Notes under the pieces: generated by a model | The model's database searches: none | What the model saw: only the letters and a program-made list of their open reading frames with translations | Told to the model about the DNA's origin: nothing | Source: Bacteriovoracia bacterium | Lineage (GTDB): Bacteria > Bdellovibrionota > Bacteriovoracia > Bacteriovoracales > Bacteriovoracaceae | NCBI GenBank assembly: GCA_030431635.1 | Contig: JAUIIL010000004.1 | Location: 124,001-188,000 of the forward strand | DNA: 64,000 bases | Reading direction: 5' to 3' | Translations under genes and position numbers: made by a program | In this document: in pieces, positions 23,797-24,829 of the stretch | Position numbering within the stretch: the stretch's first letter is position 1 | Layout of the letters: every line of letters starts with the position of its first letter

Positions 23797-24102
23797 ATGA
23801 CTAAGGCCGATTTGATTTCAGTTATCGAAAAACAAGCGAATTTACCTCATCATCAGGCGGAGAAGATTGTTAATATCTGTTTTGACAGTATGATCATGGC
23901 CCTCTTTAATGATGAGAGAATTGAAATTCGTGGTTTTGGTTCTTTTGCCAACAGAAACTACAAGGCCTACGAGGGAAGAAATCCGAAGACTGGAAAAGTT
24001 GTTAAGGTTTCTCCTAAGAAAGTGCCTTTCTTTAAAGTAGGAAAAGAGCTTAAAGAAATGGTGGATGCTGGGAAAGATAAGTACGTTATTAGAGAAGCTT
24101 AA
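23797..24102 (+). CDS. HU/IHF-family nucleoid DNA-binding protein
   Basis: A 101-residue histone-like protein that bends DNA as a dimer. It begins with the typical MTKADLISVIEKQANL, carries FDSMIMALFNDERIEIRGFGSF (dimer core), and the DNA-binding beta-arm GRNPKTGKVVKVSPKKVPFFKVGKEL with the intercalating Pro. The arm sequence is closer to IHF subunits than to HU, but one gene does not decide. A good ribosome-binding site (AAGGATGGAGAG) lies upstream. Monocistronic, upstream of the tRNA-Cys region. Confidence 0.93.
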   Translation: MTKADLISVIEKQANLPHHQAEKIVNICFDSMIMALFNDERIEIRGFGSFANRNYKAYEGRNPKTGKVVKVSPKKVPFFKVGKELKEMVDAGKDKYVIREA

Positions 24103-24170
24103 GTTTAGAGTTTTTCTTAATAATTTTTAGTGGAGAGCAGTCTCTAGCGCCATGTCATTAGTCTAAGTCA

Positions 24171-24199
24171 TTGACATTTTAGTACCTATATTCGATTAT
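24171..24199 (+). promoter_or_regulatory. Predicted sigma-70-type promoter for the tRNA-Cys array
   Basis: A perfect -35 TTGACA (24171-24176), a 17-base spacer and a -10-like GATTAT (24194-24199, 4 of 6 matches). Transcription would begin near 24206, just before the first 100-bp unit, so both repeat units and tRNA-Cys would lie on one precursor RNA. Confidence 0.5.
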
Positions 24200-24212
24200 T
24201 TGCACTCGCTTT

Positions 24213-24413
24213 AATAGCAAAAGACATTCATATTGAAGACGTGCTGCGAGTTGTGCAACTGAAGCCGGTAGGGGTTCAGGAGTTTGCAAAACAGCTCGTA
24301 AGAGCTAAACTTCAATAGCGAAAGACATTCAAATTGGAGACGTGCTGCGAGTTGTGCAACTGAAGCCGGTAGGGTTCAGGAGTTTGCAAAACAGCTCGTA
24401 AGAGCTAGACTTC
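24213..24413 (+). repeat. Two tandem about 100-bp tRNA-Cys-related units
   Basis: Unit A is 24213-24313 (101 bp) and unit B 24314-24413 (100 bp). They differ at only a few positions. Each starts with the same about 22-base leader found before the tRNA-Cys gene and continues into the tRNA's first bases (GGAGACGTGC in B, GAAGACGTGC in A). Each then shows a D-arm-like CGAGTTGTGCAA (tRNA: CGAGTGGTCCAA) and the exact 12-mer AGTTTGCAAAAC of the Cys anticodon arm. The T-arm is replaced by AGCTC-GTAA-GAGCT, a hairpin with a GNRA-type tetraloop. The ends can pair (TTGAAG/CTTCAA in A, with one G-U in B), and CTGAA/TTCAG forms an inner stem. The units are derived or degenerate tRNA copies, or structured RNAs. 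Confidence 0.8.
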
Positions 24414-24435
24414 AATAGCGAAAGACATTCAAATT

Positions 24436-24513
24436 GGAGACGTGCCCGAGTGGTCCAAGGGAACAGTTTGCAAAACTGTAAAGCCGCCGGTTCAAATCCG
24501 GCCGTCTCCTCCA
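24436..24513 (+). tRNA. tRNA-Cys (anticodon GCA)
   Basis: A 78-base cloverleaf with encoded CCA. The acceptor stem pairs GGAGACG with CGTCTCC, the anticodon stem-loop is ACAGT-TTGCAAA-ACTGT with anticodon GCA, and the T-arm is GCCGG-TTCAAAT-CCGGC. The D-arm is CCCGAGTGGTCCAAGGG. It decodes UGC/UGU. Preceded by two related repeat units under a common predicted promoter and followed by an IS remnant, consistent with a tRNA used as an insertion hotspot. Confidence 0.95.
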
Positions 24514-24547
24514 AATTATAGAAGCCAATATTGGACATTGTTTTGGT

Positions 24548-24829
24548 TAGGTCCATTCCGGACACATGGGTTACACTTTATACCGGAGACATAGGTAACA
24601 CTTTTTTATTAAACGGATCATCAACTGGTTCGACTCTTTTATTATTTTGGTCAAAGTATCCCAGGTCATAATCCATAAAGCTTACTACCCAAATGCCTTC
24701 TTCAACTTCTTTAATTCCAACGTCTTGACCTGCAAATGCACGGCTTAAACTAATTTTTAAACCTCGCTCACAGATTCTACCGCACTGAGATACCCTAATT
24801 GTTTTATCGTGGAAAGGGTAGATTCTATC
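24548..24829 (-). mobile_element. IS481-like element remnant
   Basis: Contains the 83-residue transposase tail plus the element end beyond its stop. Two near-identical copies of GGAnACATnGGTnACACTTT lie at about 24560-24580 and 24585-24605, within and just outside the last codons. The transposase-distal border is somewhere in 24540-24560 and cannot be fixed exactly; the other border is the junction with the broken gene at about 24829. The remnant starts about 35 bases after tRNA-Cys. Confidence 0.6.
24578..24829 (-). pseudogene. IS481-family transposase, C-terminal remnant
   Basis: Reading the minus strand from 24829 to the stop at 24578-24580 gives 83 residues that match the C-terminal tail of IS481-type (DDE, rve-domain) transposases: YPFHDKTIRVSQCGRICERG, then FAGQDVGIKEVEEGIWVVSF, MDYDLGYFDQ and the usual ending FNKKVLPMSPV. 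A stop codon lies directly upstream in frame (24830-24832), so the catalytic DDE core is missing. It cannot transpose by itself. The 3' flank carries an imperfect 21-base direct repeat typical of these element ends. Confidence 0.85.

Follow-up and report, generated by a model that had tools for sequence, protein, structure and literature searches.

Partial tRNA copies lying beside tRNA genes are usually dismissed as integration scars, and in the family of predatory bacteria considered here such copies recur in several genera, either within the transcript of the tRNA itself or directly behind it. In the tyrT operon of E. coli, rtT RNA comprises tandem repeats that carry tRNA-Tyr sequence. 3′ ETS-leuZ is a pre-tRNA spacer RNA that acts as a sponge for RyhB and RybB (PMC8383071), and tRNA-Other of Bacillus cereus is a pseudo-tRNA that stands outside translation, lies in a larger transcript and has a reported effect on gene expression (PMC3399842). 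In addition, CsrB/CsrC-type RNAs sequester CsrA and carry GGA motifs in hairpin loops (PMC8383071).

The locus compared here with these systems lies in a window of 64 kb (the whole stretch of DNA that was analysed), which is part of contig C4 of a 3.32-Mb genome (G000) of the family Bacteriovoracaceae. Its features are as follows:
23797 to 24102, plus strand: gene of an HU/IHF-type DNA-binding protein (PF00216, 5.5e-28)
24171 to 24199, plus strand: sigma-70-type promoter TTGACA-17-GATTAT, from consensus matching, with the transcription start expected at about 24206-24208, where the repeat array begins
24213 to 24313, plus strand: unit 1, a 22-nt leader and a remodelled tRNA-Cys 5′ copy
24314 to 24413, plus strand: unit 2, a leader and a remodelled tRNA-Cys 5′ copy
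24436 to 24513, plus strand: tRNA-Cys (GCA), from ARAGORN and Rfam (RF00005, 62.4 bits)
24540 to 24800, minus strand: remnant of a transposase C-terminus, which we take to be IS481-like, with end repeats; flanking context, separate from the units

In many relatives, too, a gene of the HU/IHF type stands upstream of tRNA-Cys, as is usual in the family. On the other side, two 25-nt repeats stand at 24555-24604, just past tRNA-Cys, and the reading frame of the transposase remnant reads ...VSFMDYDLGYFDQNNKRVEPVDDPFNKKVLPMSPV. Ends of IS481-like elements were seen directly after tRNA-Cys both in the window (24540-24800) and after position 1576 of locus L037, which belongs to a genome of another family (G057).

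The sequence-only reading had described two tandem units of about 100 bp derived from tRNA-Cys, and this description was borne out by the repeat array, a shuffle test and the recurrence of one 12-mer at three sites. The array spans 24209-24445 with a period of 100, 2.4 copies and 95% matches (TRF); between unit 1 and unit 2 the identity is 99% over 74 nt and 94% over 65 nt, and the two copies, which differ at few sites, may be recent or gene-converted. Common to the units and tRNA-Cys are the 22-nt leader, the acceptor 5′ strand, fragments of the D-arm and a 12-base anticodon core, the exact 12-mer AGTTTGCAAAAC being located at 24281, 24381 and 24465. The tRNA-like part begins at 24235 in unit 1 and at 24336 in unit 2, where the acceptor 5′ strand reads GAAGACG in unit 1 and GGAGACG in unit 2 and tRNA-Cys; moreover, the leader of unit 2 is identical to the true tRNA-Cys leader, and that of unit 1 is more diverged. 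The similarity of leader and acceptor reaches an E-value of about 1e-23, and the similarity of the unit core to tRNA-Cys was equalled by 5 and 7 of 2000 shuffles (first 8 nt / acceptor excluded). The T-arm and the acceptor 3′ strand are absent from both units, and the earlier claim of a missing T-arm was thereby confirmed by comparison with tRNA-Cys. A tRNA model gave no match on the units; ARAGORN and Rfam reported only 24436-24513, which ARAGORN, the check suggested for the array, called as tRNA-Cys(GCA), and the units matched no known RNA family, Rfam yielding only the tRNAs and sub-threshold matches. That is to say, each unit reproduces, in remodelled form and with the T-arm lost, the 5′ three quarters of tRNA-Cys; the units stand where the tRNA normally sits behind its promoter, and no comparable upstream copy was found at the other 33 tRNAs of the genome.

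Consensus matching across 24090-24640 yielded TTGACA-17-GATTAT at 24171-24199 as the only promoter-like site and no second promoter between the units and tRNA-Cys, which supports the earlier claim that one TTGACA promoter precedes all three elements and their co-transcription, "one promoter" here meaning one by consensus matching. The assembly contains 34 tRNAs, and since the other 33 are not Cys, the gene at 24436-24513 is the only tRNA-Cys found. Among the unit-free tRNA-Cys loci of the family, 85 of 94 have a promoter upstream, mostly about 40-70 nt before the tRNA, and in unit-bearing loci with a promoter found, the distance from promoter to unit is similar to that from promoter to tRNA in the unit-free loci; within this unit-bearing group, a weak promoter-like site between unit and tRNA occurs only at the Arg locus of G016. 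Since the units occupy the tRNA's usual place behind the promoter, the sole tRNA-Cys gene would be transcribed through them, and because a single promoter lies upstream, none is internal and the assembly holds no other tRNA-Cys, the units are, as judged from sequence, almost certainly transcribed as the leader of the tRNA-Cys precursor.

Both units are predicted to form a rod closed by ATTGRAG/CTTCAAT, which consists of the paired unit ends and a 9-pair GCGAGUUGU/ACAGCUCGU helix. The 80-nt cores fold more stably than shuffles (z of −2.6 and −4.0), in agreement with the structured units previously suggested, and the complementary ends noticed earlier are present, with their coordinates refined to ATTGAAG at 24232-24238 and CTTCAAT at 24310-24316 in unit 1, and ATTGGAG at 24333-24339 and CTTCAAT at 24410-24416 in unit 2. 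The G-U change between the copies, which had been taken as compensating, is a one-sided A-U/G-U difference and represents no covariation. A GNRA hairpin AGCTC-GTAA-GAGCT had also been thought to replace the T-arm; it is present as sequence, but was rejected as the unit fold, with a pair probability of 0 and a cost of 5.4 to 6.8 kcal/mol when forced. The argument that the rod arose from the tRNA by two-sided changes was dropped, since, of 11 rod pairs with counterparts among the tRNA residues, 8 are already possible in the tRNA; tRNA-derived sequence folds well by origin. In the full precursor, the native acceptor stem of tRNA-Cys is predicted with a probability of 0.98 and its pairing to a unit with one of at most 0.01, that is, in the modelled precursor the rods fold independently and the true tRNA-Cys fold is left intact. 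Differences between unit 1 and unit 2 occupy 1 of 63 positions in the rod and 6 of 38 outside it (Fisher p 0.011), an avoidance of the rod that hints at constraint and that gene conversion could equally produce.

The units themselves are absent from the 128 other family genomes searched (1 of 129 carries them), and their restriction to one genome leaves them without phylogenetic covariation. The conservation in relatives that the sequence-only reading had looked to was therefore not found for the units as such; what the relatives do contain are analogous remodelled 5′ copies, at tRNA-Cys and at other tRNAs, in other genera. In three of these genera, a remodelled tRNA-Cys 5′ copy precedes tRNA-Cys:
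G016, Oligoflexia MAG: one Cys unit of 113 nt
G108, Bacteriovoracia MAG: one Cys unit of 150 nt
G103, Bacteriovoracaceae MAG with some contamination: Cys units at two paralogous loci (L048, L049)

Most of the relatives are MAGs, and some of the examples (L231, L271) are located at the end of a contig. Of all segments, only the acceptor 5′ strand (GGAGACG, with GAAGACG in unit 1) is retained at all five tRNA-Cys loci with units, and it persists where the leader has diverged. In a hairpin stem, the paralogues of G103 are distinguished by a two-sided compensatory pair, AUGAAAAUGC..GCAUUUUCAAU vs AUCAAAAUGC..GCAUUUUGAAU (G-C to C-G). Upstream 5′ copies were also found at non-Cys tRNAs, namely Gly and Arg in G016, Arg in G103 and two Leu genes in G108, and in the Arg copy of G103 positions 8-49 are retained at 93% identity and the T-arm is absent; at the Cys, Gly, Arg and Leu loci the remodelled copies stand between promoter and tRNA. 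The scan for adjacent copies covered every tRNA found in six genomes; the out-of-family genome G041 gave no adjacent copies among its 31 tRNAs, and reversed-tRNA queries gave 0 matches in any scanned genome. A GTDB scan for a repeated GGAGACRT start before a like-starting tRNA returned the Bacteriovoracia cases and two chance matches (Agrococcus and Aquamicrobium). At L018, L087 (genus g5) and L025 (genus g15), hairpins GGGAACTTCC...GGAGTTCCC followed by a T-run overlap the tRNA-Cys promoter region.

In addition to the upstream copies, copies of tRNA 3′ ends lie downstream of tRNAs in some relatives: Gln, Pro, Ser, Cys and others in G108, Ser in G016 and Ser in G136. The downstream copies of G108 and G016 carry a common domain of about 75 nt, which is placed in the T-arm at or near the interval from GGTTC to AAATC and consists of a long hairpin H1, a short CCCGAAGGG-like hairpin H2 and a short hairpin H3 behind an internal loop. 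A covariance model of this class (R1) was trained on 11 copies, with two-sided changes in 11 of 14 pairs, and its search gave 25 matches at E ≤ 0.01, such E-values being rough for a custom model, in 13 genomes of 10 genera, 8 of these genera being outside the training set (L257-L281; for example, L259:1501-1582, L260:1501-1579 and L263:1501-1585). Many of the matches are found about 80-160 nt beyond an intact tRNA, past the terminator, and their last part copies the 3′ end of that tRNA. In the enlarged alignment the covariation of the class is strong: two-sided changes occur in 13 of 14 pairs, and the covariation score is 0.503 against 0.06-0.15 for slid controls, the alignment being fitted to the model, which favours the score. 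No Rfam family was found for the R1 elements at E 0.5 in the loci scanned.

GGA is present in 24 of 25 H3 loops and 21 of 25 H1 loops of the R1 elements. The element that CsrA recognises is GGA in the loop of a hairpin (PMC8383071), and the CsrA gene is present in G000 and most relatives examined; by this analogy, the downstream class looks like a CsrA-binding RNA. Similar GGA hairpins occur in the D-loop of the upstream units at the Cys gene and two Leu genes of G108, by which the upstream and downstream classes are linked, the match of R1 to the Cys unit of G108 being weak and covering H3 only. In G000, R1 gave no match at E ≤ 0.01, and even with filters off it did not match the window units, which are without the GGA domain. 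Each window rod has one GGA, which straddles a helix end and an internal loop and so lies outside a hairpin loop. The possibility that the window units act as a GGA/CsrA sponge was rejected, as they give no match to the R1 domain. Patterns of the unit core and the GGA domain were not found in viral contigs, the unit region showed no plasmid similarity, and one GGA-domain element showed no phage similarity.

Some R1 matches have an unusual setting. At L262, L267 and L269, no recognisable tRNA is nearby, and L269 lies among short CTCTTCACAGA-like repeats; at L266:1240-1600 (G129), the R1 element stands between two tRNA-Cys 3′ ends and an intact tRNA is lacking, as though an island had taken the element away from the tRNA. 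Moreover, an inverted-arm element is located between the tRNA and R1 in G108, G016 and G035 (L178, L231, L243, L244, L245, L248, L250, L260 and L280), with long perfect arms that vary by locus and a conserved core TCGTCG...GGTCACGTAC...GTACGC...CTCGCTTGTCGCTCCTAGAGCAT.

As for the meaning of the window units, they may be lineage-specific structured RNAs that are made from the precursor of tRNA-Cys and play some regulatory or decoy role, a reading that is narrowly preferred to any single rival and is given an even chance. Its strongest competitor, rated short of that but still to be taken seriously, is that the units are neutral debris, i.e., a partial tandem duplication of tRNA-Cys that was doubled again and is tolerated since it folds on itself and does no harm to the tRNA. 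The presence of the units in 1 of 129 family genomes, the loss of the T-arm and the 3′ acceptor, the greater divergence of unit 1 than unit 2 from the tRNA leader and the predicted undisturbed folding of tRNA-Cys agree with debris, and the complementary ends may have been kept only against misfolding with the tRNA. It is harder to reconcile with such an origin that similar 5′ copies arose independently in several genera, set against 0 of 31 tRNAs in the control G041 and 0 matches for the reversed queries, that the rod is better kept than its surroundings (p 0.011), and that the G103 paralogues differ by a compensatory change.

Site-specific integration at tRNA-Cys would make the units scars, that is, att fragments of excised or collapsed islands. 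Partial copies of the tRNA-Cys 3′ end lying away from intact genes in G088, G082 and G085 (L106, L112, L129 and L130), likely att ends of islands, mark tRNA-Cys as an integration site in the family, and the two tRNA-Cys 3′ ends without an intact tRNA at L266 and the IS remnant after the window tRNA-Cys can be read in the same way. Integrases, however, normally duplicate the 3′ end of a tRNA, and the window units copy the opposite end, the 5′ end with its leader; besides, an integrase model matched 0 of 9 examined ORFs downstream (to 39670), and the units are tandem and strongly folded, with cores not found in viral contigs and no similar plasmid DNA, so that scars are judged improbable. More improbable still is a cis-acting leader controlling tRNA-Cys maturation, in which GGAGACG would offer the tRNA 3′ strand a decoy acceptor 5′ strand. 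The retention of just this segment in all five unit-bearing tRNA-Cys loci speaks for it, but the unit 5′ strand is predicted to pair with the tRNA-Cys 3′ strand at 0 to 0.05 vs 0.94-0.98 for the native stem, and the unit 5′ strand of the window is predicted to be occupied by its own closing helix at about 0.7.

Returning to the structured RNA, whether the rods have a function is close to an even bet, with the recurrence of such copies in several genera and the constraint on the sister class in favour and the single-genome distribution against; on sequence grounds, a regulatory role of the window rods is plausible. It is proposed that tandem copying of the tRNA-Cys 5′ region would have come at the start, with the downstream copy kept as the tRNA; the promoter-proximal copy would then have been remodelled by hairpin-forming insertions around the D-loop and anticodon region and by loss of the T-arm, and afterwards doubled via unequal crossing-over between the common leader-acceptor segments. 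RNase P would free tRNA-Cys, and the rods would be left over as stable RNAs, by-products of the precursor that can be compared with pre-tRNA spacer RNAs. Within Bacteriovoracaceae, tRNA-adjacent derivatives may have been turned repeatedly into structured RNAs, and the reshaped tRNA copies of the related genomes point to an undescribed kind of tRNA-derived RNA in the family. Wider, and held more tentatively than the debris reading, is the proposal of an undescribed RNA class of Bacteriovoracaceae built on tRNA copies beside their parents, with the two-GGA-hairpin domain in the T-arm (downstream) or the D-loop (upstream) as a dispersed CsrA-binding set, in which the window units would be a divergent, T-arm-less upstream branch released as stable RNAs. 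If these copies are RNAs, tRNA duplication would be a bacterial route to new regulatory RNAs, and a direct test of the CsrA antagonists missing in the lineage would become possible.

Compared with the known systems, the downstream R1 class resembles CsrB/CsrC in having two GGA-loop hairpins per element; CsrB, however, contains no tRNA parts and gathers about 18 sites in a single RNA, and the window rods have one GGA each, outside a hairpin loop. With 3′ ETS-leuZ the window units would share the conversion of a non-tRNA part of a tRNA precursor into a separate RNA, but 3′ ETS-leuZ is a plain 3′ spacer acting by base pairing, whereas the units derive from a tRNA, lie upstream of it, are rod-shaped and have no known target. 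Like tRNA-Other, they are tRNA-like elements in what would be a larger transcript; tRNA-Other, in contrast, is a stand-alone pseudo-tRNA beside an island, and the window has two T-arm-less copies before a functional parent tRNA. The rtT RNA, too, has part of a neighbouring tRNA in tandem repeats within one transcription unit, as the single promoter suggests for the window, but its repeats contain the 3′ end of the tRNA and are located downstream of it, whereas the window units carry the remodelled 5′ part with its leader and lie upstream.
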